Part shown: piece by piece, positions 1,393-33,118 of the stretch
How positions within the stretch are numbered: position 1 is the stretch's first letter
Layout of the letters: each line of letters starts with the position of its first letter
Source of the DNA: Lentinula raphanica
Lineage: Eukaryota; Basidiomycota; Agaricomycetes; Agaricales; Omphalotaceae
Direction: 5' to 3'
Assembly: GCA_027919835.1 (NCBI GenBank)
Contig: JANVFP010000015.1
Span: 868,001 to 932,000, forward strand
DNA: 64,000 bases
Position numbers and translations under genes: made by a program
Notes under the pieces: model-generated
Database searches by the model: none
The model's input: only the letters and a program-made list of their open reading frames with translations
Told to the model about the DNA's origin: nothing

Positions 1393-1465
1393 CACTTCAG
1401 GCACCCACCAACCAGGCCTTCTTAGGATAATTATCATAGGTCAGTATTCATACCTAAGAGCCCCC

Positions 1466-1672
1466 CCAAATGGGTAGGCTACCCAGTGTTTCTTTAGGTG
1501 GGTAGCTACCCCATTAATGCTGATTTTTGTTTGGGTAGCTACCCACAAAGAACTCCTATCAGGGTAGCTACCCTTGGAGGAGTTTGAATTGGGTAGCTAC
1601 CCATGGGAGAATTTAAGTTGGGTAGCTACCCAAGATATTTTACATGAGGGTAGCTACCCACCATAATGCTGA
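1466..1672. repeat. Array of 12-bp palindrome GGGTAGCTACCC (P copy 1)
   Basis: Six exact GGGTAGCTACCC sites plus a 13-bp variant (GGGTAGGCTACCC) are spaced about 30-40 bp apart. Each motif is its own reverse complement. The same array, inverted, occurs at 6640-6850 at the opposite end of P copy 2, so it is a subterminal feature. A role as transposase or host-protein binding sites is inference. Confidence 0.8.
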
Positions 1673-1727
1673 TGGATCACTCAATTTCATTCTTAGTATA
1701 TTAGTTTCCTTGTACAGTAGTATCATG

Positions 1728-1958
1728 GCCGCATCAGGAAAAGTACCCTTGGCCCAGGTAACTCAGAGATACCCCCCAAAACCTAGGCTCTCCCAAAGCA
1801 CCCAAAGAAATTTGAGGCAAACTCAGGCTTGCCCAGGCTTTTCCAGGCAAACTCAGGCTTGCTCAGGCTTTTTCAGGCAAATTCAAAGTTTTCAGACTGC
1901 TGAGGTTTTGGGGGGTATCTCTAGGCAGCCTAGGCACCAGGTCAGTTTTGCTGATCAG
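1728..1958. mobile_element. CATCAGG-type MITE, copy B (231 bp, diverged ends)
   Basis: The left part carries CATCAGGAAAAG a few bases inside the boundary. It contains the family's inner inverted block (AGAGATACCCCCCAAAACCTAGG ... GGGGTATCTCTAGG). The boundaries are fixed by the uninterrupted arm of P copy 2 (about 6558): the empty site reads as TCATG-TATTATAC, and the filled site duplicates TG. The terminal repeats themselves are degenerate. Confidence 0.7.
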
Positions 1959-2680
1959 TGTATTATACTCTTCAATACAATCAATATACTCATTAGACTG
2001 AGCAACTAAAAACTTACATATAATATACTTTAACATACTCAATACTTGCACTTCATTACTATTAAATACAATACTCACATGTATACTGAACAATCAAATA
2101 ATCAGAGCAGTATTATCACTAATTACACTTGTTACACTCAACATATTTCATCAATAATTATAACACACCTTCAATACAACATTGTTATACAATAATAGGC
2201 ATATAGCAATGATTTTTGGGTGCTTATGGGCGCTTATTTTGGGTCTTCAACTTAAAATTCTTGAATAGCACATCCTATAATTTTTGTATAGGTCTTATAT
2301 TGTGTCAGGATGTTGTTCATATCATACTCCTCAGAATCTCAATCCGAGAACATAGAAATACATTTTCTAGGACAGGATATATAGTGATCTTTTGTGATGT
2401 AACAGCAATTTGGATAAATTCCACTGCATATATCTATGTTTCACTGGGAGATTGATGTTATCTCATGTGAGAGTCACTGCAACAGTCCACTGACAGTGTC
2501 TGTACATGCTTTCAATGGTCATCATGATGATTGGACTCTGCATCCTACATTTACATATTTCATGTACATTTGTAATATGGATAGTTGCATGTAACTGCAG
2601 ATGTCATAATCAATGACCCCCATGGTAGTTTTCTTAGCTGTATCATGTAGAGGTATCCTAGACTTGGTCGTAGAGTATGG

Positions 2681-4130
2681 ACTCGTTATGAATTACCAGG
2701 TGGCGGATACGAAACTATCCCTGCATCAGGAAAAATGTACTGAGCCCTCAGCCACTAAAAGCTGCTCTCAGGCCCCCTAGAGCCTTTCAAGGCTTTGGAG
2801 CCCCCAAAGCCTGCAAAGATACCCCCCAAATCCTAGGCACTCTCAGCCACCTGAAAGTCTTGAGGTATTCTTTGGGGTGCTTTGAGGTGCTTTGAAGTGC
2901 TTTGAAGATCTTTGAGGGTCTTTGAGTGTCTTTGAGGATCTTTGAGTGTCTTTGAGGTGCTTTGAGATGCTTTCAGAAGCAGATTATATGAATAAAAATC
3001 AATTGATTCTTCTTATTTCTATTTTACATTACATTCTATTTCATTCTATCTCATATTCTAGTATTATGTAATTTCTAATCATATTATATTATGTAAGACT
3101 TATATAATTACAAGATTTTGTAATGTACTATTTAAATTACCAAATTATATAGAGAATTTAATCTATAAATGTTATATATAAAGTCCTCCATTGAGATATG
3201 ATAATATATACAACATGTAGACATGTAGTTAATATAACTATAGATGTGTTTTGACCATGTGACAAACTTTTTGATTGTACATGGTTCACGGTAGCAGGCC
3301 AAATATATCATTGAAACAAGATCTTGTCAAAGTTGTCAATTGGAATTTTTGATGCATGTATCTTCTAAATTAAAAAAGTTCTGCAATGCACTTATGTAAT
3401 TTCCTATTTGGGTGATGTTTTCTTCATTTAATTTGATATTAAAAGTTGCTAAAAAGCTCTGCAAAGACACTCAAAGATCCTCAAAGACCCTCAAAGACCT
3501 TCAAAGACCCTCAAAGACACTCAAAGCACTTCAAAGCAGTTTAGTGACCTGGGTTACCTGGGCAACCTAGGCCATCAAGGTACTTTCAGAGTCTCTAGGA
3601 ATTAGCCATTTCTTGAGGTGCTCTCAGATCAAAGTATATTCCTTTGAGGTTGCCTAAGAAATGCCCATTTTCCTCAGTGCTTTCTAGCTCTCCTAAGCAT
3701 GTAGGCCCTCTAGAGAGCCTCAAAGAGACTCACAGTTGCCTAGGCCTAGAGTGTTTTTCCTGATGTGAAAATCCTTTGATCAGACGATTTGTCTGGGAGC
3801 ATCTACAAAATGTGAACCAAATTATTCAGCAGATGCAGTATTGCGGCGGAACCTTCTCGGGACCAAAAGCATTCCTGTGTTGTGCTGAAACTGTAGTAGT
3901 TGGACACCGTTGCATGTACGAAGGACAGAAACCGGAAGATAGAATCGCAACTACGGTTCTGACTTGGCCCCTGTGTTCATCTAAGACACAGGTCCGAGCC
4001 TTTCTGGGAACTGTTGGTCAGCTCCGGATGTTCATTCACAATTACACTAAGAAAGCCTCACCTTTGACCAAATTAATGGCTAATATTCTGTTTGAGTGGA
4101 AGGATGAGCATATCATAGCCATGGACCTGT
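2681..4130 (+). pseudogene. Ty3/gypsy pol fragment interrupted by MITE C
   Basis: The segment 2681-2723 translates as 'TRYELPGGGYETIP'. After MITE C is removed it continues 'ENPLIRRFVWEHLQNVNQII', then 'YCGGTFSG', 'VVGHRCMYEGQ' and 'VRAFLGTVGQLRMFI'. I recognise this as the RT C-terminal/connection region of an agaricomycete gypsy family. A shift near 'KPEDRI' and the missing ends show decay. The fragment is bounded by P copy 1 on the left and P copy 2 on the right. Confidence 0.85.
2724..3765. mobile_element. CATCAGG-type element, copy C (1042 bp)
   Basis: Ends are CATCAGGAAAAATGT / GTTTTTCCTGATG, with the 2-bp duplication TG on both sides. Excision restores the gypsy pol frame exactly (ATC CCT GAA AAT CCT). 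Subterminal minisatellites are inverted to each other: TTTGAGGTGC/TTTGAGTGTC units at 2880-2970 and the complementary CAAAGACACT units at 3455-3540. The AT-rich centre has no ORF of note. It is about four times longer than copies A and D, with the same ends. Confidence 0.85.
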
Positions 4131-4941
4131 CACTTCAGTCACCCCCCAAACAGGCCTTATTAGGATAAAAAATCATGTACCTAAATGGGCCTATGAGGCC
4201 CAGCAAATGGGTAGCCTACCCTGCCTATATTTAGGGGTGTAGCTACCCTTGGGTGGGTAGCTACCCCCATATAACTGAGCAGCATATCTGGGTAGCTACC
4301 TATTCATGTCACATCACAGGGTGCCAGGGGTCCTTCTTAGGTAGCTACCTGGCATTTTGGAAATTTTCATCCTCACTCCAAATCCTTCACCTTGCTAAGC
4401 TAGACATATACAAATACTGCAATGGTATAATATCAATACATAGCAATACTATACTAGCTATCATTGGGTAGCTGGTTGTACTCCTACAATAGCTACTTGG
4501 ATATTGCAATCAAGCAATGGGTGATCTGTAATACAGAAGAAGATATGATTACATAAGGTGAAATACTACATATTTCTGTAGCTCATATAGTGCATGTGCA
4601 TTTAGCAGCTCCCCTTTCAACAATAACATATGAGTTTCATAGTGCAATTACTAGCTTCCAAGATAGACAAAATGACTTTTGTTATTGGTAAGTACCATTC
4701 TACAACTAGGTCTAACTTATACTGATATTATGCTTTTTAAAAGGTCCCCCAGTATAGTAGATATCTTGTCACTTTGATATCTACCCATTCTATATTCTCA
4801 ATAGCTATGTGTACCTGCCCACCATAAATTAGGTTAGCTTAGAGCTATACCTTCGAAACTCCTGGTGGGTAGCTACACCTTTTCAATTTTTTGTAAATAG
4901 CTACACCTTTGAAACCCTGGTTGGTTAGGTGGCTACACTAC

Positions 4942-5115
4942 TGTAGCGGACCGGGCCGCTACGGTTTCCATCCCGGCCAAACTAGGGTAACAAGAGCCTA
5001 GAAGCGGGGGATTGGGCATATCTACTGTGACTGATGGCTGTTAAATTGGGACAGGTAGTCCAACAGTTCACTGCGTGCAATTCCAGCGTGTTCCATTTTA
5101 GTCAGCATCGTTACA
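4942..5115. mobile_element. Solo LTR (174 bp) with ACTAC target duplication
   Basis: The segment begins TGTAGCGGACC and ends CATCGTTACA (TG...CA). It is flanked by perfect 5-bp direct repeats ACTAC (4937-4941 and 5116-5120), the size expected for Ty3/gypsy or copia integration. It is GC-richer than the surrounding P element and interrupts that element's repeat array. No internal region remains, as after LTR-LTR recombination. Confidence 0.85.
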
Positions 5116-5149
5116 ACTACCTACCTTGATAGGGTAGGTAGCTACCTCT

Positions 5150-5395
5150 TCAAAACTTTTGGTGGGTAGCTACCCTGCTAAAATCCTAGGGCAGGTAGCT
5201 ACCTGTTCTGAAATTTGTGATAGGTAGCTACCCCTGCTAAAATCTCAGAGTGGGTAGCTACCTGTTCTGAAATTTGTGATAGGTAGCTACCCCTGCTAAA
5301 ATCTTAAAGTGGGTAGCTACCCCTGCTAAAATCTTAGAGTGGGTAGCTACTCCTGCTAAAATCTTAGAGTGGGTAGCTACCCCTGCTAAAATATT
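5150..5395. repeat. About 30-bp minisatellite containing GGTAGCTACC
   Basis: Units of about 30 bp of the form 'GGGTAGCTACCCCTGCTAAAATCTTAGAGT' (written in two parts: GGGTAGCTACCC, then CTGCTAAAATCTTAGAGT) recur roughly seven times, the last four or five almost identical. It lies in the left arm of P copy 2 and has no counterpart of equal length in the right arm, so it expanded after the palindrome formed. Confidence 0.8.
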
Positions 5396-6921
5396 ATACT
5401 TTAACATAGTCAATACTTGCACTTCATTATTAAATATAATATTCACATGTACACTGAACAATCAAATAATCAGAGCAGTATTATCACTAATTACACTTGT
5501 TACACTCAACATATTTCATCAATGATTCTAACACACCTTCAATACAACATTGTTATACAATAATAGGCATATAGCAACAATTTTTGGGTGCTTATGGGCG
5601 CTTATTTTGGGTCTTCAACTTAAAATTCTTGAATAGCACATCCTATAGTTTTTGTATAGGTCTTATATTGTGTCAGGATGTTGTTCATATCATACTCCTC
5701 AGGATTTCAATCCGAGAACACAGAAATACATTTTCTAGGGCAGGATATATAGTGATCTTTTGTGATGTAACAGCAATTTGGATAAATTACACTGCATATA
5801 TCCATGTTTTGCTGGAAGATTGATGTTATCTCATGTGAAAGTCACTGCAACAGTCCACCGACAGTGTCTGTACATGCTTTCAATGGTCATTATGATGATG
5901 GGACTCTGCATCCTACATTTACATATTTCATGTACACTTGTAATATGAATAGTTACATGTAACTGCAGATGTCATAATCAATGATCCCCATGGTAAATCT
6001 CTTAGCTGTATCATGTAGAGGTATCCTAGACTTGGTCATAGAGTATTGCTTTGTATCCCCCAGTCGCAATTTGGCTGCATGACATGGATATATGCAGTAT
6101 GATTTACACAAATTGCTGTTACATCACAAAAGATCACTATATATCCTGTCCTAGAAAATGTATTTCTGTGTTCTCAGATTGAAATTCTGAGGAGTATGAT
6201 ATGAACAACATCCTGACACAATATAAGACCTATATAAAGATTATAAGATGTGCTATTCAAGAATTTCAAGTTGAAGACCCAAAATAAGCGCCCATAAGCA
6301 CCCAAAAATTGTTGCTATATGCCTATTATTGTATAACAATGTTGTATTGAAGGTGTGTTATAATTATTGATGAAATATGTTGAGTGTAACAAGTGTAATT
6401 AGTGATAATACTGTTCTGATTATTTGATTGTTCAGTGTACATGTGAGTATTGTATTTAATAATGAAGTGCAAGTATTGAGTATGTTAAAGTATATTATAT
6501 GTAAGTTTTTAGTTGCTCAGTCTAATGAGTATATTGATTGTATTGAAGAGTATAATACATGATACTACTGTACAAGGAAATTAATATACTAAGAATGAAA
6601 TTGAGTGATCCATCATCCAACTAAAGCATTATGGTGGGTAGCTACCCTTATGTAAAATATCTTGGGTAGCTACCCAACCTCAATTCTTCCATGGGTAGCT
6701 ACCCAATTCAAACTCCTCCAAGGGTAGCTACCCTGATAGGAGTTCTTTGTGGGTAGCTACCCAAACCACAATCAGCATTAATGGGGTAGCTACCTGACCA
6801 ACAGGCAGCTACCCACCTAAAGAAACACTGGGTAGCCTACCCATTTGGGGGGCCTCTTAGGTATGAATACTGACATATGGTAATTATCCTAAGAAGGCCT
6901 GGTTGGTGAGTGCCTGAAGTG

Positions 6922-8083: not shown

Positions 8084-11000
8084 TCAAAGAGACATGTAAT
8101 ATGCAGGAATATCCCAGGTGGGTGTAAGGGACATCCCAGGTGGAGGGGGGGACATCTCAGGTGAGGGGTCATCCCAGGAGTAAGGGTCATCCCAGGAGTA
8201 AGGGTCATCCCAGGAGTAAGGGTCATCCCAGGAGTAAGGGTCATCCCAAGTAAAGGAGACATCTCCAGCTGCTGCTGCTTGAGGTGCAGTGCCATGATTG
8301 ACACCCTGAGCATTGATCTCTGTGCCCTGTTGAGCTACAGATTTCACAGTATCTTGGTAGACTCTAGCTGCTGCCTCTTCAAGTGCAGTGCTATGATGTT
8401 CACCTTGAGCATTAAACTCTGCACCATGTTGAAGCAGAAGCTTCACAGTATCTTTGTTGCCTCTAGCTGCTGCCTTTTGAAGTGCAGTGCTATAATGTTT
8501 ACTTTGAGCATTAATCTCCGCACCATGTTGCAGTAGGAATTCCATAATATCTTTATGGCCCCCAGCCGCTGCTGCCAAAAGTGCAGTGTCATAATATCCA
8601 CCCTGAGCATTGATTTCTGCACCCTGTTGGACTAGAAACTCCACAATATCTTTGTGGCCCCTAGATGCTGCAGCATGAAGGGCACTACCAAAATGCCCAC
8701 CCTGAGCATTGATTTCTGCACCCTGCTGAACAAGAAATGTCACAGTATCTTGTTTCCCCTGTAATGCTGCCACTTGAAGTGCAGTATCATAAATCCCACT
8801 GTGGGCATTGATCTTGGCACCCTGTTGAACTAAAAACTCTACAGTATCTTTGTGGCCCCTAGATGCTGCTGCATGAAGGGCACTACCAAAATGTCCACCC
8901 TGAGCATTGATTTCTGCACCCTGCTGAAGAAGAAATGCCACAGTATCTTGTTTCCCTTCAAATGCTGCCACTTGAAGTGCAGTGCCATGATACCCACCCT
9001 GAGCATTAATCTCTGCACCCTGTTGAACCAGAAATTTTACAATATCAATATGGTTCCTATTTACTGCTGCTTGAAGGGCAGTACCAAGAGCTCCACCCTG
9101 AGCATTGATGTCTGCACCCTGTTGAATCAAATATTCCATAGTATCTTTATGGCCCTGATCTGCTGCTTCTTGAAGTGCAGTGCCATAGTGCCCTCCCTGA
9201 GCATTGATCTCTGCACCCCAATGAACCAAAAATTCCACAATATCTTTTTTGCCCCTAGCTGCTGCCTCTTGAAGTGCAGTGCTATGATGTTTACCTCGGG
9301 CATTAATTTCTGCACCATGTTGAAGTAGAAATTCCATAATATCTTTGTGGCCCCCAGCTGCTGCTGCAAAAAGTGCAGTGTTATGGTACCCACTCTGAGC
9401 ATTGATCTCTGCACCCTGTTGAACCAGAAACTCCACAGTATCTTTGTGTCCTTGAGCTGCTGCCTTTTGAAGTGCAGTGCTATGATGTTTACCTTGAGCA
9501 TTAATCTCTGCACCATGTTGAAGCAGGAATTCCATGATACCTCTGTGGCCCCCAGCTGCTGCTGCCGAAAGTGCAGTGTCATGATACCCATCCTGAGCAT
9601 TGATCTCTGCACCCTGTTGAACCAGAAACTCCACAGTATCTTTGTGTCCCTGAGCTGCTGCCTTTTGAAGTGCAGTACTATGATGTTTACCTTGAGCATT
9701 AATCTCTGCACCATGTTGAAGTAAAAGTTCCATGATATCTGTGTGGCCCCTAGCTGCTGCTGCCAGAAGTGCAGTGTCATAATACCCACCCTGAGTATTG
9801 ATTTCTGCACTCTGTTGAATCAGAAGCTCCACAGTATCTTTGTGACCTCGGCCTGCTGCCTCTTGAAGGGCAGTGCGATGGTGTTTACCTGGAGCATTAA
9901 TCTCTGCACCATGTTGAAGCAGAAATTCCATGATGTCTTTGTGGCCTCCAGCTGCTGCTGCCAGAAGTGCAGTACCAAAATGCCCACTCTGAGCATTGAT
10001 GTCTGCACCCTGCTGAAGAAGAAACATCACAGTATCTTGGTTCCCCTGAGATGCTGCCACTTGAAGTGCAGTGCCATTATACCTACCCTGAGCATTGATC
10101 TCAGCACCCTGTTGAACCAGAAATCTCACAATATCATTGTGGTCCTTAGCTGCTGCTGCTTGAAGGGCAGGGCCAATAGGCCCACCCTGAGCATTGATTT
10201 CTGCACCCTGTTGAACCAGAAATTTGACAGTATCTTGGTTGCCCTGAGCTGCTGCTAATTGAAGTGCAGTGCCAAAATGCCCACCCTGAGCATTGATCTC
10301 GGCACCCTGTTTAACCAAAAATTCCACAATATCTTTGTGGTCCCTAGCTACTGCTGCTTGAAGGGCAGTGCCCAATCTACCACCCTGAGCATTAATATCT
10401 GCACTCTGTTGAATCAGAAGTTCTACAATATCTTGGTTGCCCGTAGCTGCTGCTTCTGCAAGTGCAGTACCATAATACCCACTCCGAGCATTGATTTCTG
10501 CACCTTGTTGAATCAAAAATTTGACAATATCATTGTGGCCCTGAGATGCTGCTGCTCGAAATGCAGTGCGATGATACCCACCCTGAGCATTGATTGCTGC
10601 ACCCTGTTGAACCAGAAATTCCACAATATCTTTGTGGCCACCAACTGCTGCTGCTTGAAGTGCACTACCATTATTTCCACCCTGAGCATTAATCTCTGCA
10701 CCATGTTGAACCAGAAATTCTACAGTATGTTTGTGACCCCGAACTGCTGCTGCTCGAAGAGCAGTGTTATAATACCCACCCTGAGTATTGATCTCTGCAC
10801 CCTGTTGAATCAGGAGCTCCACAATATCATTGTGGTTCTGAGCTACTGCTGCTTGAAGGGCAGTGCCAAAATACCCACCCTGAGCATTGATATGTGCACC
10901 CTGCTGAAGCAGAAATTCAACAGTATCTATGTGGCCTCTAACTGCTGCTGCTTGAAGTGCAGTGCCATAATGCCCACCTTGAACATTGATCTTTGCACCC

Positions 11001-13547
11001 CGTTGGACCAGAAGCATCACAGTATCTTGGCTGTGCCCAGCAGCTGCTGCTTGAAGTGCAGTGCCAAAATGCCCACCCTGAGCATTGATTTCTGCATTAT
11101 GTTGAACCAAGAATTCCACAGTATCTTTGTGGCCTCTAGCTGCTGCTGCTTGAAGGGCAGTGCCAAAATACCCACCCTGAGCATTGATCTCTGCACCTTG
11201 TTGAATCAAAAATTTGACAATATCATTGTGATCCTTAGCTACTGCTGCTTGAAGGGCAGTGCTGAAATACCCACCCTGAGCATTAATATGTGCACCCTGT
11301 TGAAGCAGAAATTCCACAGTATCTTTGTGGCCCACAACAGCTGCTGCTTGAAGTGCAGTGCCATAATGCCCACCCTGAACATTGATCTTTGCACTCTGTT
11401 GAACCAGAAGCTTCACAGTATCTCTGTGGCCCCTAGCTGCTGCTATTTGTAATGCTGTTCCAGAATATTTTGACATGATATTGATATCTGATAGATCATT
11501 TTAAGTATACTTGTATATTACAATAATCAAAGTTAAATTACATACCTGTATCCATATTGGTCAACAACTGTTGCATATTTGTTTCCAGGCCAAACCATGC
11601 AGTAACATGGAGCTTGTTACCTTCTGCAAATATATTCTTTGTTGTATATTCCTCATCATTGTTAGTTTGAAAGTTTTTTGTCCAATTTATAAATGCTTTG
11701 GAAGCCTGTTCCAGGAATATCTGAATCAATTCTATTGATTTGTTACATGGAAGTGAATTCTTATCAATATGATGACCATGCTCTCCCCAGTACTTAGTTG
11801 CATACTGTTCAAATGAATTAATATCTTTCATCCACAAAAAACTTTCTTTATCTTCAATTTGGTTTAGAAGATAGATAAGACACATCTGTGCTATATTATC
11901 ATGTGCCAGTTCTGCATTTATATCCATTAACTTGCTTTTTTGGAATATACTGTTGCTTCCTAATAGGAACTCCTTCACAGATGCATGTGAAAGTTGGACA
12001 ATGTTCTTGTTGTCAACAGTAACTAAAGTAGTATCAATGATCTCTTCCAATCCAATCAGCATTTCAGCATTGGATTCAACTGCTCTTGAGTTCAGATCAA
12101 TTGACAGGATGATTTCAACTTGACTGATGTAAAGAGGCTCAAAAGAATATAAAAGCCATAGGAGAAGATTGTGTGCCTCTTCAGAATAAGAACTATCTTT
12201 GCATTTTTCAATAGCTTTGAGATATGATTCCTCCAAATTTGTAGGTAGCTCAGCTAGTATCCTATGTATTCTCTTTGCATTGGCACCTCTTTTCAATAGT
12301 TGAAGTTGACAGTCAACATAGCGAAATCTGTTACTTCCTCAGACTTGAGCAGTAAAATATGTAAATAGTATCACTTACCCTCCATGTGCTTTTTTCATCA
12401 ATGTAGATGTTACTTCAGTATTCAAAGCTGTACTCTTGAATGCAACTTGCTGATTCAAGAAAGTAGAAATATCTTGATCAACCATACTATTTTTCCACAA
12501 AGATATTGCAGAATATTTTGAGGACTTGGGTTGATAATTGCGGCTTGTGATTATGATTCCAATTAAATGTGATTTGGCCATCTGCACACAAAAGTTCCAA
12601 ATTTGATCTATCTCTTTGCTTTCATCTAGAGCATCAATCATTATATAAACTTGAAACTTTTTACTGACTAAGTCCTTTAATATCTTCATCAAAGTATCCA
12701 CAAGCTTTTTATTTGTAGGCTTGAAATAAGAAAGGCCATTCTTTGATGATTCATGCAAGTTCTTCAATTCAAAATGAATCTTTTGATCTTGGACACCCAG
12801 TTGTGAAAGAAAAGATGACAACAATCCTTTGAAGCTTGTCTTAGCTTCTGTATTGTCACGTGTATCAAAGTAGTGATAAATTGTGAATGTTGAAATAGCT
12901 GTCTCTTGAAGATTTTCAATAATACTGGTACTAAATGTTTCAATCAATTGGTATCAGCTTTAGTCTATCCAACAACTATAAAATCAGAATCTCACATCAA
13001 GAATGTTTTACCTGATCCAGCTGCAAGGAAGTGTAAATACTTTCTTTTATAATAAAGTTATGCCAATGTAATTACCTTGGCCTTGAATCCACAAGATACT
13101 TCCTTCCTTTCTCCATTCAAGATAAGTAGGATCTTCAAGGATCCATTTTCCTGTTCCATCTCCCCTTCTATCCAAAGCTGTTGAATAATTGATGGAACAA
13201 TCTGGAGCACCAAGCCATTCTCGAAGTTCTTTCTCTTCATCACTCAAGAGATCTGCATGTGACATCATTACTTCAATATAATAATTTTGTAATCTCTGAC
13301 TTACAGTAGTAGTTGATATCCTTCCCTGCCACCCCAAAATTTCCTCCACTGACTGTAACATTTTGTGTATTATTGAAAATCCCAAAGTTTCTGTAAGAAT
13401 ATTATCATGTATATGAATGAAGTAATGTAACTTATAAATCTCACCCTTCTGTAGACTGATTGCTATAGCTGTTAAAAATAATGAAACTAGGAATATAAAA
13501 ACAATGAACATAATCATTTACCTTTGGTTATTCATTTGATGACTCAT
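8084..13547 (-). CDS. NACHT-ankyrin NLR-type (STAND) receptor, 8 exons, about 1693 aa
   Basis: Signal-transducing ATPase of the fungal NLR type. These proteins are thought to act in non-self recognition or cell death, but the role here is not known. Exons by eye: 13547-13522, 13468-13445, 13390-13305, 13252-13076, 13020-12996, 12930-12379, 12333-11546, 11487-8084. All junctions are GT-AG and keep frame to the stop. Residues 20-40 contain 'NVTVSGGNFGVAGKDIN', a leader I know from basidiomycete NLRs. Walker A is 'AGSGKT' (about 105-110), split over a 25-nt exon. Walker B is 'IMIDALDE' (about 209-216), followed by 'IIITSRN'. Residues about 300-560 fit the helical/winged-helix linker. From about 565 there are about 32 ankyrin repeats of 33 aa ('GTALQAAA..GH.DTVEFL.QQGAEINAQGG'). 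The tail is 'SWDDPYSWDDPY'-rich. The first exons are the least certain part. Confidence 0.85.
8172..8258. repeat. 18-bp tandem repeat encoding the NLR tail
   Basis: Five near-identical copies of 'GTCATCCCAGGAGTAAGG' sit just before the NLR stop codon. On the minus strand they encode SWDDPY repeats. The phase is a multiple of three, so copy-number change would keep the frame. Confidence 0.9.
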
Positions 13548-14767: not shown

Positions 14768-14867
14768 CACCCTCCAGGGTGTTGAAGAGGGTGTTGAAGA
14801 AGACTGGATTTGATGATGAGAACCAAATGAGGACAATGAGAATGACAATGGGGAAGGAGACCTTCAA

Positions 14868-15426: not shown

Positions 15427-15790
15427 CAGCTGATACTGTAAAACTTTTGTAAAAAGTACTGATAAGTTATCAGATACCTATTGCAACTAGTTGTGATAAC
15501 CCGGAGGGGGTCCGGAAATGGCCCCGGGGGGTGGCCATGCCTGTCACTACCTGTCACATATGGCTTATATTTACTGTTTTGGGTAATTAATAATCATCCA
15601 GATATTATATAAGCAGTACATTTTCAAAAAACCCAAAAATTCATAAAAATTCGTAAAAAACCTAAAAATGGCCTGATTAGGTCAGATCAGGATATTTGTT
15701 GGCCCTGAAAATGTACAATTAAAAAAAATATACAACAAGTGTAAAAATTTTTATCACTCCGAATTATTCCAAATCCCCAGTGTCTCTAAA
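15427..15790. mobile_element. Hairpin element Q, left-end fragment
   Basis: It begins with AGCTGATACTGTAAAACTTTTG, the terminus of element Q at 28006. It then follows Q closely: GATAACCCGGAGGGGGTC, CCTGTCACATATGGC, 'AGGTCAGATCAGGATAT', 'TTGGCCCTGAAAATG'. Compared with Q it skips the stretch between the last two blocks. It stops near 15790, where Q would continue. It shows Q is a dispersed repeat. Confidence 0.8.
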
Positions 15791-23168: not shown

Positions 23169-23645
23169 TTTTTTTTTTTTTGTGGAGCGTAAGTTGCCAG
23201 GACCGGTGACAAAGTCACCTCCCTTTCAACCGCTAAGGTCGCAAGGCAAGCCCCGCTATAAGTATGGACACCACCCAAGGAAATGCGTTATGCACTGGAC
23301 ATCTTAATGATGTCCGTGTGTGGGACTCCGCACTGGCAATATAGAGCTGAAGAAGTTAGTTTCTTAGGAGAGGAGATGGCCAATGCAATTGGCCATCTCC
23401 CTTGACTTACCTGTACCTACCCCATGCCAGACCGTATACCCACTAAAACCCCGGCCTCCCCCATCCAATCTTCAGGGAGGTTGTCCTGTTCCTTCAGAAC
23501 ATCGTGCCAAGTCCTCTCAACTAACTTTTTATCCAGATGGCCCTTCATGTATTTACCCTTCATCAACAGACAGTCAAGTTCCAGACGGCTCTCAATGGTT
23601 GCTTTCCATCTCCGTTTGATTTCCAATTCAGTGATCTCTCGCACA
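23169..23645 (-). mobile_element. 3' end of a Tad/R1-like LINE with poly-A tail
   Basis: Read on the minus strand, the last codons of a LINE RT ORF are present: 'LDCLLMKGKYMKGHLDKK' followed by 'LVERTWHDVLKEQDNLPEDW' and 'GVLVGI', a C-terminus I know from fungal Tad-like elements. A 3' UTR of about 200 bp ends in a run of about 18-20 A (seen as T at about 23169-23184). The element is 5'-truncated by hairpin element Q at 23646. Confidence 0.75.
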
Positions 23646-26600
23646 GGATACAGTAAAGCTTTTGTAAAAAACACTGATAAGTTATTGGGTACCTATTGCA
23701 AATAGTTGTGATAACCCGGAGGGGGTCCCGGAAATGGCCCCGGGGGGTGGTCATGCCTGTCACCACCTGTCACATCCTATATTATAAAACTGCTCAGTCC
23801 CCAATGCTTACTTAATAACGAAGATGATTACAAATCATTTCGGGCGCTTTTTCTCTCAGGTCAGTGCTCATTTCTTGGGCTTTCAATCCCTTCTTGATAT
23901 TATAACACTTGATTTATAATTTATAATCTGACTACTCCTTCTGTTTTTAGTTTGTGGTACTTCAACAGTCAACTCTCTAATTTTGAACACAATTTTCTTA
24001 TTTGTTCAAACACTATGTTCATTTGGTTTCTGGATTAGACCTTATTAGCTGGCTGATTGATATATTTTAACCCAAAAATACCATAATAGGCTGCTCCACC
24101 AGTCAATTTCTATGAAAACACTGAGGTAAGTTTAAAAAGGTATTTGTTTTGATTATTTGGGTTGTTATTTCACTAATAAGGTCTGTTTATAAAATTTCAA
24201 TAAATTATGTTTAATACCCTACAACTCTTGACTGCTCAAAGAGATAGAAATAAAGGACCACAAAGCTATCTTCACTCAATGTGAGTATTCTAGAGATATG
24301 GGTGCAAGAATTCTAGGTGAATCCAACTTCCAACTTTGCTGATAGGATATTTTCAATCTCTCTTGAATTTCAATGAATATATTGAGATCTCAATAATGAA
24401 GGGGCAATCATTGGAGACAATGATGCTGGAAGTCAAAATCAAAATCAAATGAAAAAAATATGAAAAAAAACCCAATTGCTAATTTGGAGCTCAAATATAC
24501 TTATATCATTAAGAAAAATAGCTATAGAAGTGTCATTGTAGAAAAGAGGGATAAATGGGTTCTAGATAGGGTGCAAAATTTGGTCTACTTCATCAAGGAA
24601 AGGAGCCATTTGACCTTCAAACAAAATGAAGTGCAATGGATTATGGAGTTAACTCAGTCAAGAAATTGGGAGTTAAAAATCAAGAACTACTTTTGTACTT
24701 TTGACATCAAGTTTTTCAAAACTTCAGAAAGACAAAAACATTAGCAAATTGCAGAATCAAAGATTGAAAAATGAGGAATCAAGACATAGGAGAATTGAGA
24801 AGTTTTTAGGATTTGGAAAGTCAGGACTCAGGAGATTGAGAAATTGGGAGCAGCCTCAGGGAGGTCAAGGAATTGAGAGCGGGAAGGTCAAGGAATTGGG
24901 AGAGAGCGGGGAGGTCAAAAAACTGGGAGTTGAGGTATTGTATACATAAATTCACTTCAAACTGATAGTTGAAAGCAAAGGTAACTGAGATATAGCATAT
25001 GCGCACTGTCGTGACGAAGTCATGGGTATCAAGCTTGTATGGCTTATATTTACTGTTTTGGGTAATTAATAATCATCCAGATATTAAATAAGCAGTACAT
25101 TTTCAAAAAAACCCAAAAATTCATAAAAATTCATAAAAAACCTAAAATGGCCTGATTAGGTCAGATCAGGATATGTAAGCAAATGACCTCATATGATAAA
25201 AAATGATGTAGGGTCAATCTAGGTACTAAAAATAGCCCAAAAAATCACTAAAAATACAAAAATATTTAGGGATGGTATAGAGCCTATTGCAGGCCCAGGC
25301 ACATCAAAATTACCAAAAAAGGTAAAAATTGATCATGATCTCATCTTGTAGCAAAAAATCTGAAAAAAATCCTAAAAATAGTCAAAAAATTCAGGGGTGC
25401 CTTGTTGGCCCTGAAAATGCAAAATAAAAAAAAATACGCGACAAGTGTAAAAATTTTCATCACTCCAAATCATTCTAAATCCACTATACAGTCAGTATAT
25501 ATGATGTATATGCTATATTTAGCATCCTAGTACCTTTATTGGGCTAAAAGTAGAACTTGATCTCATCTGATAGCAAAAAATCTGAAGAAATCATGAAAAA
25601 TACTCAAAAATTTAGGGGTGCCTTATTGGCCCTGAAAATGCAAAATAAAAAAATTTACACGACACAATTGAAAAACAACATCACTCCAAATCATACCAAA
25701 TCCACTACACAGTCAGTATATATCATGTATATACTATTTATAGCACCCCTAGTACCCTCAAATCATATCAAACTAAATGATTTGGGGAGTAAATATATTG
25801 TACATCATATTTTTAGCACACCTAGTACCCTTGATAACTTAGAACAATTTATATTACTCAATATGTTTAGTACACTTAGCACTTATCACACCTAACACAC
25901 TAAAACTCATAACAGTACTTATATGTATTATACTTAACACAGTTGACAATGAAAATACTTCAAACAGTGTTGTCAGTCACTATACTTAACACACTTAACA
26001 GTCAAAAAGTCGGAACAATGTTACTTTATATACATAATACACTCATTGTTATACTATAACACACTTATAACAACGAGTTTTGGGCGCTTATGGGCGCTTA
26101 TTTGGTGTTTTTGAGTCGAAAATCATTATAGCACACTCAATAATGTTTGTCTGGGCTCTATACTGTGTCAGGATGTTGTCTATATCATATTCTTCTAGAT
26201 ACAATTTAGAGAACTCGAAAATTCAACCTGTGGGGTTGGCTATATTGTGATCTTTTGAAATATAACAGTGTTTTATGTAAATGTCAATGCATATGTCCAT
26301 GTAATGCAAGTATACTGATGGTGGTTCATGAGGGAATCACTCCTACAGTCAACTAGAAGTGTCTTGTCTGGACATGGTTCAGATACTCACTATGACTATT
26401 GGACTCTGTGATATACATGTACATGTTTCATGTACACTATAGATGTCAACACTTACATGTAACAATAGATGTCATATTCAATGACCCCCATTACAAATCT
26501 CTTTGCTGTATCACATAGGGTTAGCATAGAATAGGTTGTAGGATGACTCTCAGTCTCATGATCCAGTAGCAGTTTGACTTCATAACATGGGTGTATACAT

Positions 26601-28006
26601 TGCCATTTACATAAAACACTGTTATATCACAAAAGATCACAATATAGCCAGTCCCAAAAGCTGTAATCTTGAGTTCTCTGAATTGTATCAAGTGTAGTAT
26701 GATATAAACAACATCCTTACACAATATAGAGCCCACACAGAAATTATTGAGTGTGCTATTAATGAATTTCGACTCAAAAACACCAAATAAGCGCCCATAA
26801 GCGCCCAAAACTCGTTGTTATAAGTGTGTTATAGTATAACAATGAGTGTGTTATGTATATAAAGTAACATTGTTCCGACTTTTTGACTGTTAAGTGTGTT
26901 AAGTATAGTGACTGATAATACTGTTTTGAGTATTTTCATTGTCAACTGTGTTAAGTATAATACATATAAGTATTGTTATGAGTTTTCATGTGTGAGGTTT
27001 GATGAGTGTTAAGTGTACTGAACATATCGAGTAATATAAATTGTTCTGAGTCATTAAGGGTACCAGGTGTGCTAAAAATATCATGTACATTATATTTACT
27101 GAATGTTGTCAGTCTGATATGATTCTCGAGTGATATAAGCTATACTGAGTGATTGAAGGTACTAGAGGTGCTAAAAATAGTATATACATGATATATACTG
27201 ACTGTGTAGTGGATTTGGTATGATTTGGAGTGATGTTGTTTTTTAATTGTGTCATGTAAATTTTTTTATTTTGCATTTTCAGGGCCAATAAGGCGACCCT
27301 GCATTTCTTGAGTATTTTTTATGATTTTTTCATATTTTTTGCTATCAGATGAGATCAAGTTCTATTTTTAGCCCAATAAAGGTACTAGGATGCTAAATAT
27401 AGCATATACATCATATATACTGACTGTATAGTGGATTTAGAATGATTTGGAGTGATGAAAATTTTTACACTTGTCGCGTATTTTTTTTTATTTTGCATTT
27501 TCAGGGCCAACAAGGCACCCCTGAATTTTTTGACTATCTTTAGGATTTTTTTCAGATTTTTTGCTACAAGATGAGATCATGATCAATTTTTACCTTTTTT
27601 GGTAATTTTGATGTGCCTGGGCCTGCAATAGGCTCTATACCATCCCTAAATATTTTTTGTATTTTTAGTGATTTTTTGGGCTATTTTTAGTACCTAGATT
27701 GACCCTACATCATTTTTTATCATATGAGGTCATTTGCTTACATATCCTGATCTGACCTAATCAGGCCATTTTAGGTTTTTTATGAATTTTTATGAATTTT
27801 CGGGTTTTTTTGAAAATGTACTGCTTATTTAATATCTGGATGATTATTAATTACCCAAAACAGTAAATATAAGCCATATGTGACAGGTAGTGACAGGCAT
27901 GACCACCCCCGGAGCCATTTCCGGGACCCCTCCGGGTTATCACAACTATTTGCAATAGGTACCTGATAACTTATCGGTACTTTTTACAAAAGTTTTACAG
28001 TATCAG
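23646..28006. mobile_element. Hairpin element Q (4.4 kb)
   Basis: Outer inverted repeats begin with GATACAGTAAAGCTTTTG on the left and end CAAAAGTTTTACAGTATCAG on the right. They continue as ACCTATTGCAAATAGTTGTG and AACCCGGAGGGG. The left arm resumes at about 25030 after a foreign segment and runs to about 26300. The right arm is its reverse complement from about 26590 to 28006. The loop (about 26300-26590) is not self-complementary and resembles the loops of P and R. Arms carry GGGCGCTTATGGGCGCTTAT. It contains no credible coding sequence. Confidence 0.85.
23785..25025. other. Segment present only in the left arm of Q
   Basis: This 1.24-kb sequence separates two parts of the Q arm that are adjacent in the right arm and in the fragment at 15427. 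It starts after 'ACCTGTCACAT' and ends before 'ATGGCTTATATTTAC'. One open frame (24460-24744) is Lys/Asn-rich and resembles nothing I know. At 24835-24920 there is a purine-rich local repeat ('AGGTCAAGGAATTGGGAG'). I found no clear termini or target duplication. Confidence 0.5.
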
Positions 28007-28012
28007 CTAGTA

Positions 28013-28136
28013 TTCCACGGATTCTCCTCCTTCATCTCTTGCAACTTCTTCGACGGGCTGTAATTGGCATCATTGTCGTTGTAGGGTTTGAGAGATTTGG
28101 AAGACACAATCCGTATTTCGTGGTTTGGTTTTCATG
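28013..28136 (-). pseudogene. Chimeric fragment similar to ALG12 exon and intron sequence
   Basis: Positions 28013-28065 match the ALG12 low-complexity exon around 54303-54385 ('TATTCCACGGATTCTCCTCC', then 'TTCGACGGGCT' against 'TTCGACAGGCT') with an internal deletion. Positions 28070-28136 match ALG12 intron 1 around 55037-55098 ('GAGATTTGGAAGA', 'ATCCGTATTTCGTGGTTTGG'). The two pieces are about 700 bp apart in ALG12 but adjacent here. It is too short to be functional. Confidence 0.65.
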
Positions 28137-28140
28137 ACTT

Positions 28141-28696
28141 GGTAGATCCTCAAGGCCTCACGCGCACGAACAACACAAACACCGCAGGGACCGACATAGT
28201 GTGTTTCCGGATCCAGATCGGCGCGATCAGGCCGTCCAAGTAGACCGGGGAGGTACGGGTGAGTGGGGAGAGGGAAGAGTGCAGGTGTGTGGTGGAGAGG
28301 GAGGTGGTTAGGGGGAGGAGGGGTGTTTGGTGCGAGGAAGAAGAGGGAAAGGAGGACATAGAGTGTGAGGAGGTATGGGAGGACGAGGAAGACGACGTGG
28401 ATAACCCAGATGACGACGAAGGAAACACATTCGACATCGACATAGACATCGAAGAATCCCCATCATTCCCCACCAACGACGCCTTCCTCGGTGGAAACCT
28501 CACGTCTTTATCCACCAACACCACTTGAAAGATCTTTTTCTCTTCTGCACCGTTGACTCCAGTAGCAGCACCAGTAGCCAGAGGATCCCAGACCGTTATC
28601 TGTCGTTGGGCCAACAACATTTTGCGTAGACGAGACGCGAGGAGCGTGAATGGGTCTCTGTCTCCTCCTTCCCGTTCTCGGTCCTCCGTCTGACCC
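28141..28696 (-). pseudogene. TRAPPC11-like gene, downstream portion, truncated
   Basis: Minus-strand translation runs 'DRDPFTLLASRLRKMLLAQR' then 'QITVWDPLA', 'FQVVLVDKDVRFPPRK', a Ser-rich stretch, and 'YLDGLIAPIWIRKHTMSVPA' followed by 'VFVLFVRVR'. I recognise this from the N-terminal region of fungal TRAPPC11 (foie-gras/TRAPP complex subunit, ER-Golgi trafficking), where 'LLAQRKP.VWDP' and 'HPDGLIAPIWIRKH..VPSVFVLF' are typical. The gene ends within about 150 codons. Its upstream part lies beyond gypsy-1 at 41938-42363. Confidence 0.75.
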
Positions 28697-28869
28697 TATA
28701 AGGTGGATGCCTCGTATTGAGGCGAGCTTTCTTAGTATCAGACGATGAACACGACAAGATATATTAGACGTGTTGATAGTCGGGATAAAAGAAGAACTAA
28801 GAGTAACAATATGTGCAAATAGTCTCGTATATGAGTGATTACTAATCAGAATATGTCATAGGCGTTACA
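28697..28869 (-). repeat. gypsy-1 3' LTR (173 bp)
   Basis: On the minus strand it starts TGTAACGCCTATG directly after the polypurine tract and ends CATCCACCTTATA. It is identical to the other LTR outside the inserted MITE. The GACCC duplication adjoins. Confidence 0.95.
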
Positions 28870-29104
28870 CCCTCCCCGGCCAGGTTGAACTGTGGGGTAC
28901 AACCGAAGTAAGATTACAATCGGTGGATAATCTCATTGTGGAGACTTCAGATGAACAGATCGAGGTAGCGGTCCAAGATTGACTGTCCATAAGGTGATGA
29001 TGAGTTAGGATGAGTAGAGTCAAGGTAGCGGTCCAAGATGAACTACTCATCCATTAGTGAGAGATTGAAAATAAGAATTAACGGCCTACCAAGTAGCAAC
29101 AATA

Positions 29105-30085
29105 TCACACCGTATCCATAGACGAGTCATTAGGTATGACATTGGTTGTACTCGGATCGGATGTATCCATCGTGTCCTCCATGGATACAGCTTGGTGAGT
29201 TTGAGAAGTTGACGCCACCGGAATCATGACTACAGCGGTATTGTGAGGGAATATATTGATCCTTTCCAGGAACTCTCCCGCAGTGGGGGCAGAGGGTCGG
29301 TGAGTAATCATTCCATCCACATTCATTAGGTCTTCATCTACGCCAGCTGGGATGCCATGCTTCATGAGAAGGGGGTACAATCGATAGCGGAGCTGGAATA
29401 CGAGGTTCACAAGATCGACGTTGACAGCCTTGATGTCACGAAGCCATACGTATGCAAAAAGCGCTGCGTCATGGATATCTTCGACGGCGAGACCTTGCGA
29501 CGTGAAGAAACGAGCCATGTTGTCCATAGTTAGGTTGCGAGGATCTCTTGGGTATTGAGATGGCACCGGGATCGGAAAGGCCGTTAGGATGGCATTTTCA
29601 TGTAGGAAATTGGCGTAATAAGAGGGGGTGAGCACCACTTCGATAGCGGTGATAAAATACGCGATTCTGACCGATGCCATGGCACTCTTGTCAATCTCTG
29701 GCTCTCGACTTAGAATCATCCGCCTCCCGCGAATGGATCTAAGCGATACTGTATTTGACTCAGAGAGATGAACTACACCAAGAATGAGGCGTGGCTTCAT
29801 CGCTTGAGGATGACACATCCATCGAGCGATCACTTCTGGGCTCGCGTCGATGGGTGGGGGTTTGGAATCTGCTCTCCTCTGTTCCGCGGCTGCTTGTGCC
29901 TCTTCTTGGCGAACTTGATGTGCTTGAGCACGATCACTTGATTCGGTCACCATGCCTTTCGACCGGCTGGATGACACGAATGAGGGAACATAGAATTTGG
30001 CTATGACTTCACGTTGGACCGGAGTTCTATCGCGGTCAGATGTCGATTGCGCCCGGTTGTGCATGGCCTCCAACCACCTGTAGCA
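29105..30085 (-). CDS. gypsy-1 extra ORF downstream of pol, C-terminal part
   Basis: An open frame on the minus strand runs from the R boundary ('CYRWLEAMHNRAQ') to a stop at 29105, more than 320 residues. It contains 'VIARWMCHPQAMKPRLILGV' and 'FFTSQGLAVEDIHDAALFAY'. I do not recognise a known domain. It occupies the position between pol and the 3' LTR that env has in some retroelements. There is no obvious signal peptide or membrane segment, so an envelope role is not supported. It is separated from its likely N-terminal half (33872-33114) by element R. Confidence 0.6.
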   Translation of the reverse strand, partial: CYRWLEAMHNRAQSTSDRDRTPVQREVIAKFYVPSFVSSSRSKGMVTESSDRAQAHQVRQEEAQAAAEQRRADSKPPPIDASPEVIARWMCHPQAMKPRLILGVVHLSESNTVSLRSIRGRRMILSREPEIDKSAMASVRIAYFITAIEVVLTPSYYANFLHENAILTAFPIPVPSQYPRDPRNLTMDNMARFFTSQGLAVEDIHDAALFAYVWLRDIKAVNVDLVNLVFQLRYRLYPLLMKHGIPAGVDEDLMNVDGMITHRPSAPTAGEFLERINIFPHNTAVVMIPVASTSQTHQAVSMEDTMDTSDPSTTNVIPNDSSMDTV

Positions 30086-33000
30086 GTAAAGATACTTTAA
30101 AACAAGCTGTGAACTTCACAGTGGTGTATTGTAATCCATACCGTGAACTTCACAGTGCACTAAAAAGTTCACCGGGGCTGCTGGAATAGCTCCAGGAACC
30201 TGCTAAAAATTGCCGGGGGGCCCTCATATAATTCCGAGAGGTCTTTAGATTATTTCCTTTTTGGTTATATTATTTAAATAAATGTATATAGGTAAATAAA
30301 ATATATATAAAATCAGTAAAATACTCAAAAATTAGGAGAAAAATGATTTGCTTAAAAAAGGAGAAAATAACCTGATTGATACATTACCTTTTTTGGTAAA
30401 AATACATATAGGGTCTAAATAGGTCCCTCAAAATATGGGGAAAAAATCATAAATAATCCAAAAATATACACAATAGGCAATTCTATTTTTAGAAGACATA
30501 TGTCTAGGGTATATATTGGTGCCTGATAATAGAAAAATATCATATGGAATCCAGAATTGGCTAACACAGGGCACTGATTACCTCAGGCACATCAAAACTA
30601 CTCAAAAAGGAAATTGGTCTAAAAATAGAACTTGATGTCATCTCGTAGTAAAAAATCTGAAAAAATCATAAAAAATATTGAAAAAATTCAGGGGTGCCTC
30701 ATTGTCCCTGAAAATACAAAATAAAAAAAAATACGCGACAAGTGTAAAAAATTTTATCACTCCAAATTATACTAGATCCTCTATTCATTCAATATATCTG
30801 ATGCACAAGCTATTTTTAGCACCCCCAGTACCCTCAGGCACCTAGAATAGCTAATATCATTCAATATATTCAGCATACTCAATGCTTATTATACTTAACA
30901 CAGTTAACAATGAAAAATCTTAGAATAGTATTCATGTGTATTCTACTCAACACACTCAACAATGAAAAACCCCGAAACAGTGTTCATGTGTATTATACTT
31001 AACACACATAACACACTTAACAATGAAAACTCTCAGAACAGTGTTCATGTGTATTATACTTAACATACTCAACACACTTAACAATGAAAAAAACTCAGAA
31101 CAGTGCTCATGTGTGTTACACTTAACACACTTCATCAATCAATATAATATACTTAACAATCAAAAACTCGGAGTAGTGTTATCACACATTATACTTAACA
31201 CACTTCATCAGTAAGTATAACATACGTTCAATAGGACATTGTTATACTATAACACACTTATAACAACGAGTTTTGGGCACTTTTGGGCGCTTATTTGGTG
31301 TTTTTCAGTCAAAATTCATTAATAGCTCACTCAATAATTTTTGTGTGGGCTCTATATTGTGTCAGGATGTTGTCTATATCATATTCCTCTAGATATAATT
31401 CGGAGTGCTCGAAAATACAACCTGTGTGGCTAGCTATACTATAATCTTTTGTGATATAACAGTGTTTTATATAAATGCCAATGCATATGTCCATGTAATG
31501 CAAGTATACTGATGCTGGTCCATCAGGAAAGGACTCCTACAGTCTACTGGCAGTGTCTGTACATGATTCAGATAGCTATCATAAAGGTTGGACACTGTGA
31601 TACACATGTACATGTTTCATGTACACTATAGATGTCTACACTTACATGTAACAATAGATGTCATATTCAATGAGCCCCATTACAGATCTCTTGGCTGTAC
31701 CACATAAAGTGAGCTCAGAATAAGCTGTAGGATGACTCTTTTCATGACCCAGCAGCAGTTTGACTTCATACCATGGGTGTATGCACTGTCATTTACATAA
31801 AACACTGTTATATCACAAAAGATTATAGTATAGCTAGCCACACAGGTTGTATTTTCGAGTTCTCCGAATTATATCTAGAGCAATATGATATAGACAACAT
31901 CCTGACACAATATAGAGCCCACACAAAAATTATTGAGTGAGCTATTAATGAATTTCGACTGAAAAACACCAAATAAGCGCCCATAAGCGCCCAAAACTCG
32001 TTGTTATAAGTGTGTTATAGTATAACAATGTCCTATTCAATGTATGTTATACTTACTGATGAAGTGTGTTAAGTATAATGTGTGATAACACTACTCCGAG
32101 TTTTTGATTGTTAAGTATATTATATTGATTGATGAAGTGTGTTAAGTGTAACACACATGAGCACTGTTCTGAGTTTTTTATTGTTAAGTATGTTGAGTAT
32201 GTTAAGTATAATACACATGAACACTGTTTCAAGGTTTTTCATTGTTGAGTGTGTTGAGTAGAATACACTATTCTAAGATTTTTCATTGTTAACTGTGTTA
32301 AGTATAATAAGCATTGAGTATGCTGAATATATTGAATGATATTAGCTATTCTAAGTGCCTGAGGGTACTGGGGGTGCTAAAAATAGCTTGTGCATCAGAT
32401 ATATTGAATGAATAGAGGATCTAGTATAATTTGGAGTGATAAAATTTTTTACACTTGTCGCGTATTTTTTTTTATTTTGCATTTTCAGGGACAATGAGGC
32501 ACCCCTGAATTTTTTCAATATTTTTTATGATTTTTTCAGATTTTTTACTACGAGATGATATCAAGTTCTATTTTTAGACCAATTTCCTTTTTGAGTAGTT
32601 TTGATGTGCCTGAGGTAATCAGTGCCCTGTGTTAGCTAATTCTGGATTCCATATGACATTTTTCTATTATCAGGCACCAATATATACCCTAGACATATGT
32701 CTTCTAATAATAGAATTGTTTTATGCCTACTGTGTATATTTTTGGATTATTTATGATTTTTTCCCCATATTTTTAGGGACCTATTTGGACCCTATATGTA
32801 TTCTTACCAAAACAGGTAATGTATCAACCAGGTTATTTTCTCCTTTTTTTAAGCAAATCATTTTTCTCCTAATTTTTGAGTATTTTACTGATTTTATATA
32901 TATTTTATTTACCTATATACATTTATTTAAATAATATAACCAAAAAGGAAATAATCTACAGACCTCTCGGAATTATATGAGGGCCCCCGGCAATTTTTAG

Positions 33001-33118
33001 CAGGTTCCCGGAGCTATTCCAGCAGCCCCGGTGAACTTTTTAGTGCACTGTGAAGTTCACGGTATGGATTACAATACACCACCGTGAAGTTCACAGCTTG
33101 TTTTAAAGTATTTTTACA
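30086..33118. mobile_element. Hairpin element R (3.0 kb)
   Basis: Outer inverted repeats read GTAAAGATACTTTAAAACAA on the left and TTGTTTTAAAGTATTTTTAC on the right, followed inward by AGCTGTGAACTTCACAG. The arms are nearly perfect reverse complements over about 1.4 kb each (to about 31500 and from about 31780). The loop resembles those of P and Q. The arms include GGGCGCTTATTTGG and TGTGTCAGGATGTTG. It has no coding capacity. It splits the extra ORF of gypsy-1. I could not define a target duplication with confidence. Confidence 0.85.

Follow-up and report, generated by a model that had tools for sequence, protein, structure and literature searches.

Giant foldback elements in Lentinula raphanica: non-autonomous DNA transposons most likely moved by KDZ-type transposases

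In the genome of the basidiomycete Lentinula raphanica, a stretch of 64,000 nucleotides (C15:868001-932000, referred to as the window) carries three types of giant foldback element, designated P, Q and R, in which two long inverted arms surround a short loop. P, Q, R and their relatives elsewhere in the genome (49.06 Mb in 75 contigs were searched) are non-autonomous DNA transposons. The large population of foldbacks with KDZ-type tips is real, and judging from sequence comparison these elements are very probably cut-and-paste transposons that are moved in trans by transposases of the KDZ type.

Structure, distribution and insertion sites of the foldbacks

When the window was compared with itself by the basic local alignment search tool (BLAST), P copy 2, Q and R were each found to consist of long inverted repeats around a short loop (Table 1), which agrees with the architecture given for them in the original prediction. 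The limits proposed there for P copy 2 were kept, and those for Q and R were shifted. For R, 30075-33128 was preferred to 30086-33118 because an exact 7-bp duplication, CTCCAAC, stands at both sides (30068-30074 and 33129-33135); the R arms run inward from 30086 and 33117. The right end of Q lacks its final G. No target-site duplication was seen in the flanks of Q or of P copy 2. The 1,262-bp stretch in the left arm of Q was taken as an insert, since both its sides align to adjacent positions at 27878; uninterrupted Q copies of about 3.1 kb occur elsewhere. This insert is perhaps Helitron-like, and it shows no obvious duplication at its junction, which reads ...CACA/TCCTATATT...AAGCTTG/TATGG. 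P copy 1, 89-96% identical to P copy 2 in BLAST, lacks the downstream arm and is interrupted at about 1728-1953. Tandem GGTAGCTACC-rich repeats lie at 5130-5396 within the arm of P copy 2.

The outer termini of the three types had been described as unrelated. This description fits P, whose tip differs (CACTTCAGKCAC), but it fails for the extreme tips of Q and R, each of which has one CAGCTGA.. and one CAC..G.. end. Among the motifs proposed to be shared by the upper arms, TGTGTCAGGATGTTG was present in those of P copy 1, P copy 2, Q and R, and the other two were not shared in this way: GATCTTTTG.GATATAACAG had a single exact match in the window (minus strand, 26619), and perfect GGGCGCTTATGGGCGCTTAT was found in both Q arms and one R arm and was absent from P and the upper R arm. 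The proposed loop motifs were recovered, with TTCATGTACACT followed by TTACATGTAAC in the same order in the loops of P copy 2, Q and R, and with GATGTCATA.TCAATGA.CCCC in both P copies, Q and R. Moreover, no stop-to-stop frame of at least 150 amino acids lies inside P copy 2, Q or R, as expected from the statement that no protein is encoded; therefore, the three elements can be at most non-autonomous derivatives.

Table 1. Positions of the foldbacks, their parts and the KDZ elements compared with them, and copies classed by target-site duplication. Positions without a contig refer to the window.
Feature	Position	Strand	Description	Basis
P copy 1	1393-2678	+	truncated P-type foldback: left end CACTTCAGGCAC, broken arm, loop	BLAST, end motif at 1393
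P copy 2	4131-6921	+	palindrome, ends CACTTCAGTCAC / CACTTCAGGCAC, loop 5823-6066 (244 bp)	
P copy 2, innermost upstream arm	5391-5822	+	432 nucleotides, 94% complementary to 6067-6498	
P copy 2, innermost downstream arm	6067-6498	-		
Q-type solo fragment	15427-15776	+	CAGCTGATACTG end and partial arm; homology breaks at 15695/15696	
Q	23642-28008	+	foldback, Kyakuja-type ends (CACAGGATACAG left), enlarged by insert	
Insert in Q left arm	23776-25037		1,262 bp, not in right arm	
Q arms	25038-26332 and 26555-27878			BLAST
Q loop	26333-26554	+	222 bp	BLAST
R	30075-33128	+	3,054-bp foldback, ends CACCTGTAGCAG / CAGCTGATGTTG	
R loop	31543-31724	+	182 bp	
P-like KDZ element	C1:167679-176354		near-perfect terminal repeats (one difference in 200 bp), 7-bp duplication CACTAAC	
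KDZ element	C20:552849-562237		9,389 bp; left end CAGCTGAAGCTGTAA, right end CACCCGTAGCTGTAG, duplication AGACGAT on both sides	
Copies with 7-bp duplication			L004, L008, L009, L011, L014, L017, L018, L019, L020, L021, L028, L030, window R, C20:820022 element	
Q/R/S/T-type copies without duplication			L003, L005, L012, L025, L026 (only six flank bases visible on one side), L027, window Q	

The elements had been called dispersed, and the genome search bore this out. The loop pattern, with at most one mismatch, matched at 363 places (193 forward, 170 reverse), and its reversed control matched nowhere. The stem pattern gave 365 forward and 364 reverse matches and the Q-type tip pattern 262 and 255, again with controls of 0. 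For locus-level analyses, the first 100 places of each list were used. Twenty loci around loops on C1 and C2 were taken for anatomy, and a palindrome spanning 2.4-3.7 kb was present in 16 of them (counted by eye from the tabulated loci); the remaining four are L006, which contains an insertion that enlarges it, and the shorter L010, L013 and L015. Uninterrupted copies are palindromes of 2.7-3.2 kb with sharp ends. When 100 of the 517 Q-type tips, from C1-C7 only, were paired, 27 of the 30 pairs lying 2.4-4.1 kb apart joined one tip of each type among the tips listed; two of the remaining pairs contained a minor variant, and one had tips classed alike. Two pairs of Q-type tips stand much closer together, at 0.7 and 1.6 kb (C1:1621701-1622418 and C1:1721317-1722870), and may mark shortened members of the family.

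Beside Q and R, two more families that are related to each other were recognised, S (L019, L027) and T (L030, L005). Target-site duplications were counted in copies with both ends visible, and one-ended loci were left out. An exact 7-bp duplication flanks 14 of 21 copies of the Q, R, S and T types, and an 8-bp duplication flanks four of six P copies (L006, L042, L043 and L045; none was found for L046 and window P copy 2). The idea that the elements are excision substrates thus holds only in the ordinary sense that they are transposons with target-site duplications. Furthermore, three copies of the Qb subfamily at separate sites are 99% identical, so some subfamilies are young.

At each of C1:623299-627186, C3:337834-341687 and C7:828460-832433, a KDZ domain is split into two halves with a loop lying between them. 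At the insertion site of R the joined flanks give an open frame of at least 399 codons, and at that of L018 they are open for 400 codons, both frames being limited by the 600-bp flanks used. As a raw count, frames of more than 150 codons span six of the 10 insertions examined. Five of the six listed relatives of the gene interrupted by R are named Lentinula raphanica, and the sixth is the window's own protein. At L028, a Q foldback sits just upstream of a hAT dimerisation domain; the frames before this domain look hAT-like by eye, yet they gave no Pfam hAT match. The region L029/L028 (C20:819980-832940) is a four-deep nest, in which a foldback holds a long interspersed nuclear element (LINE), the LINE holds a hAT element, and the hAT element holds the Q foldback; the LINE has the duplication GATCAATGATGTCA and an A20 tail, and the Q foldback has the duplication GGTACGT.

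KDZ transposons with matching ends

An autonomous partner had been expected elsewhere in the genome, and candidates were found in the form of KDZ transposons with matching tips. The KDZ transposase domain (PF18758) has 158 matches in the genome. One of them (E=6.2e-38) lies in the element at C20:552849-562237, which carries both end types of the Q- and R-like families. The right end of this element was located by the AGACGAT duplication, and homology with a copy on C33 ceases within 1 bp of it. The right tip, CACCCGTAGCTGTAGAACCTTCGCG, corresponds to the CACCCGT ends seen in L005, L012 and L030. The two tips of the element are imperfectly inverted.

The surroundings of 100 of the 135 CAGCTG tips were also inspected, with KDZ loci merged by hand. 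Within 15 kb downstream, a KDZ gene was found on the same strand at nine tips and on the opposite strand at eight. Five of the same-strand genes sit 6.57-6.88 kb downstream of CAGCTG ends; when the genes were shifted at random, the interval of 6.4-7.0 kb, which was picked after the data were seen, held 0.14 on average and two at most in 3000 shifts. Each of the five tips, one of which belongs to the C20 element, can be aligned with foldback tips for 91-103 bp (82-91% at best) before the sequences diverge, and the best-matching foldbacks are not the same across the five. The L031 element also carries a CxC2 domain (E=1.8e-38); its right end was not found in 13.5 kb, and the match pattern shows an interrupted copy. 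From the shared end pair, duplication and tip, Q, R, S and T were assigned to KDZ transposons, the ties for Q and R being the outermost tip, the pairing of two unlike ends and the 7-bp duplication. The name Kyakuja is used for this type since, in the accessible part of Kojima (2025; PMC12730594), Kyakuja elements of Laccaria are reported with 7-bp duplications and CA..TG ends.

The P type was followed by its 14-bp tip, which has 60+60 matches genome-wide against 0 in the control. When the first 100 of the 120 ends were paired and compared with 150 of the 158 KDZ matches, 28 adjacent pairs under 20 kb were obtained, 20 of them short (1.0-5.0 kb) and eight long (7.4-17.8 kb). A KDZ gene is enclosed in all eight long pairs (>7 kb) and in none of the 20 short ones, not all of which were read in sequence. 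In the long pairs the gene lies 2.0-3.2 kb from the nearer end and is transcribed towards it. Random shifts gave a mean of 0.67 pairs enclosing a KDZ gene and a largest count of six in 2000. One of the eight long pairs, the P-like KDZ element at C1:167679-176354, was read, and besides the 14-bp tip it has in common with the P foldbacks an equally placed CTTAGG and repeats of the form GGTA..TACC. The GGTA..TACC units number 13-17 per kb in the first 300 bp of a P foldback and of a P-like KDZ element, against a background of 0.10 per kb (window 33200-64000), and may be binding sites of the transposase. In addition, a KDZ segment from L013, which is not known to belong to an element with P ends, shares 32% identity with the C20 transposase segment across 85 residues, indicating that diverged KDZ lineages are present in the genome.

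Conserved core and inverted arms

Ten elements representing five families were brought into a common loop direction and aligned, and loop windows were set with limits from Q. Across the central 880 bp or so, which takes in the loop and the inner arm on each side, identity is 82-95% among Q, R, S and T and 66-82% against P, some alignment windows consisting of up to about a third gaps. Conservation of a core among elements with different ends, as originally claimed, is therefore upheld by this alignment. The special conservation of the loop is not: loop windows were 85-91% identical and inner stems 82-95% among Q, R, S and T, and the values against P were 70-74% and 66-82%, so that the loop is no better kept than its stem. 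The unit of conservation is the loop together with the inner stem. Outside it, a block of about 240 bp per arm is common to Q, R, S and T (72-89%) and is not in P. The outer 400 bp or so averages 49-58% across the compared families, a figure that takes in S versus T, two families whose relatedness extends over a large part of the element (77-82% in BLAST); outer arms that truly differ are found between Q, R, S/T and P. The core occurs with duplications of both 7 and 8 bp and looks like an old imperfect palindrome that was passed between families largely as a unit.

The direction of the loop relative to the tips was scored in 20 pairs holding exactly one listed loop and one tip of each type, and it was 10:10. 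No strict linkage of loop orientation to the ends was found, and the ratio suggests arm-to-arm recombination. In five of the 12 copies compared (L009, L014, L028, L042 and L046), the two arms resemble each other more (98.1-99.2%) than they resemble their best match in another copy (96.5-98.4%). The arms of L019 are identical over 1,250 bp. At L025 (C20:391740-397440) the mirror symmetry of the arms goes on into the flanks for at least 70 bp on either side, which may reflect copying of one side from the other or an assembly error; its loop holds a Harbinger-like insertion.

Mechanism, rival explanations and known systems

In the mechanism that we favour, the foldbacks would be moved in trans by KDZ transposases that may need only the tips of about 100 bp (in most cases a CAGCTGA.. 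end on one side and a CAC..G.. end on the other), with the palindromic body carried along as cargo. The module of about 880 bp may have spread between families by recombination in the long arms or by end replacement. Arm-to-arm recombination would flip the loop and, in some copies, re-homogenise the arms, and we propose that the palindromes could in this way persist rather than decay.

Several observations weigh against this mechanism or parts of it. Movement in trans is inferred from comparison of sequences. Seven of the 21 Kyakuja-type copies and two of the six P copies have no duplication. The direct tip matches of KDZ elements were to S and T foldbacks only, and no KDZ element was found whose subterminal sequence is of the Q or R type. 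Around the CAGCTG tips, four of the nine same-strand KDZ genes lie outside the favoured interval, eight more are on the opposite strand, and two further tips near KDZ genes are those of ordinary foldbacks. The P foldbacks and the P-like KDZ element at C1:167679-176354 differ outside their 14-bp tip, CTTAGG and GGTA..TACC repeats. Moreover, the P duplications are 8 bp long and that of this element, the sole P-like KDZ element with its ends read, is 7 bp, so that P can be linked with a KDZ lineage but not, so far, with the particular element that moves it. As for the arms, the 10:10 ratio could come from a few flipped founders that were later amplified. The arms of Qb are 93.5-93.7% identical within an element and 98.6-99.4% between elements, and L018, L020, L043 and L045 are also nearer to another copy than arm to arm. 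In a tree of the innermost arms, several forks of which are weak and which may include loop-adjacent sequence, the P arms stand apart from the rest and those of Q, R, S and T split into upstream and downstream arms, except that both L019 arms group together. As a general rule, homogenisation of the arms thus finds no support in Qb or in the innermost arms. Flipping was therefore either common or recurrent, or a few flipped founders were amplified, and conversion occurred in some copies. The foldbacks also depart from Laccaria Kyakuja in having inverted repeats, none being reported there in the accessible part of PMC12730594.

The core leaves room for two other interpretations. It is possible, though rather doubtful, that the core is a selfish module that invaded KDZ lineages by replacing their interiors, used the transposase of whichever tips it acquired, stayed palindromic through arm-to-arm recombination and possibly had a function of its own, such as producing double-stranded RNA. 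We regard as improbable that the inner stem and loop form a functional module under selection, such as a hairpin RNA, a silencing decoy or an enhancer of replication or transposition, which several families acquired. The identity of 82-95% over about 880 bp among Q, R and S/T despite different outer arms, and the presence of the core with both duplication lengths, would fit such a module; however, the same pattern would be expected if the families had come to share the core by descent through recombination, the loop has diverged to a similar extent as the stem, and selection was not demonstrated for any sub-motif. Furthermore, the window had no Rfam match at gathering score, and in a search with E up to 0.1, L014 and L042 gave two weak MIR8742 hits at 26.6 bits against a cut-off of 130, as hairpins can by chance.

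A different mover, either a hAT7 transposase or one of the P superfamily as in Galileo, appears very unlikely. Duplications of 7 bp are reported for hAT7 (accessible part of PMC12730594) and for Galileo (accessible part of PMC3573991), and a hAT dimerisation domain lies inside a C20 foldback. That candidate (C20:820022-832916, with foldback ends and the duplication CCCCTCT) was rejected, because its hAT is nested in an internal LINE and has, by eye, GGGTCGGGT-rich ends of its own. The hAT beside L030 has GGGTCGGGT-rich ends too. These are the two of the 78 hAT-domain matches whose ends were inspected, and at neither locus was a hAT transposase native to an element with foldback ends found. The P-family domain PF21787 had 0 matches, but the control genomes were likewise silent, so that this count says little about the P superfamily. 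Both movers are disfavoured by the KDZ element with the same ends. A Harbinger partner was also rejected, since the DDE_Tnp_4 and Myb genes at L024 belong to an element that is nested there, has GGCCCTGTT ends of its own and is flanked by a TTA duplication.

That the foldbacks are immobile, decaying repeats or inverted duplications spread by segmental duplication is hardly credible. Such an origin could account for the nine of 27 copies with both ends visible that lack a duplication, and for L025, where the palindrome extends at least 70 bp into both flanks. Nevertheless, it is refuted for the 18 of 27 copies with exact 7- or 8-bp duplications, and the fixed end motifs, the 99% identity of three Qb copies at different sites and the insertions within KDZ genes and other reading frames speak against it. 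Least plausible is that the palindromes are artefacts of assembly. Long palindromes are hard to assemble, and L025 with its palindromic flanks stays suspect; however, in many copies the divergence between the arms reaches about 10% or more, the flanks differ and the duplications are consistent.

Among known systems, Laccaria Kyakuja elements have 7-bp duplications, 5'-CA..TG-3' ends and no terminal inverted repeats, as far as the accessible part of Kojima (2025; PMC12730594) goes. The foldbacks resemble them in the 7-bp duplication and the CA..TG ends, and their tips of about 100 bp are common to the local KDZ element, whereas they lack a transposase and contain arms of about 1.2-1.45 kb plus a loop in place of genes. 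The same part of that paper gives 8-bp duplications for Zisupton and a Dileera example, which is the length seen in P, and 7-bp duplications for hAT7, which resembles the foldbacks in this respect; the two hAT loci inspected have other ends. Galileo of Drosophila may be the nearest analogue. In the accessible part of PMC3573991, it is described as a member of the P superfamily with 7-bp duplications and non-autonomous foldback copies, in which one central region occurs with the terminal repeats of three subfamilies and chimeras lack matching duplications. Very long inverted repeats, the 7-bp duplication, non-autonomous copies, one centre with differing terminal repeats and the chimeric pattern are thus shared with Galileo, whereas the foldbacks of Lentinula have KDZ-type tips and a core that is found with end types of both duplication lengths, 7 and 8 bp. 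For Tm1 and similar Mutator-type elements, the title of PMC3169594 points to a foldback architecture.

In Marasmius oreades, KDZ elements are reported, as are non-autonomous elements mostly under 1,000 bp, and KDZ transposons are called understudied (accessible part of PMC8290104). No title on foldback or palindromic KDZ derivatives was present among the literature matches listed, which covered open-licence PMC papers without supplements. KDZ transposons hereby gain a large non-autonomous foldback population with defined tips, from which the terminal needs of KDZ transposases become testable with minimal substrates. Hundreds of multi-kilobase palindromes in one genome also provide a natural system for studying flipping, conversion and the survival of inverted repeats, and the passage of a core between transposon families with different ends.

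Other features of the window were also recorded. At 8084-11500 on the minus strand, an open frame of 1,138 codons contains about 32 tandem 99-bp units and is ankyrin-like by eye. At 34002-41393, also on the minus strand, two adjacent long open frames, one gag-like and one pol-like, have by eye the appearance of a Ty3-type retroelement. The stretch 28697-28869 resembles an uninserted relative of 41486-41932, with flanks 99-100% identical; because the flanks overlap by 5 bp, 41555-41823 would represent an insertion of a small element that has inverted repeats and makes a 5-bp duplication, and a second copy of it (93%) lies at 1118-1380.

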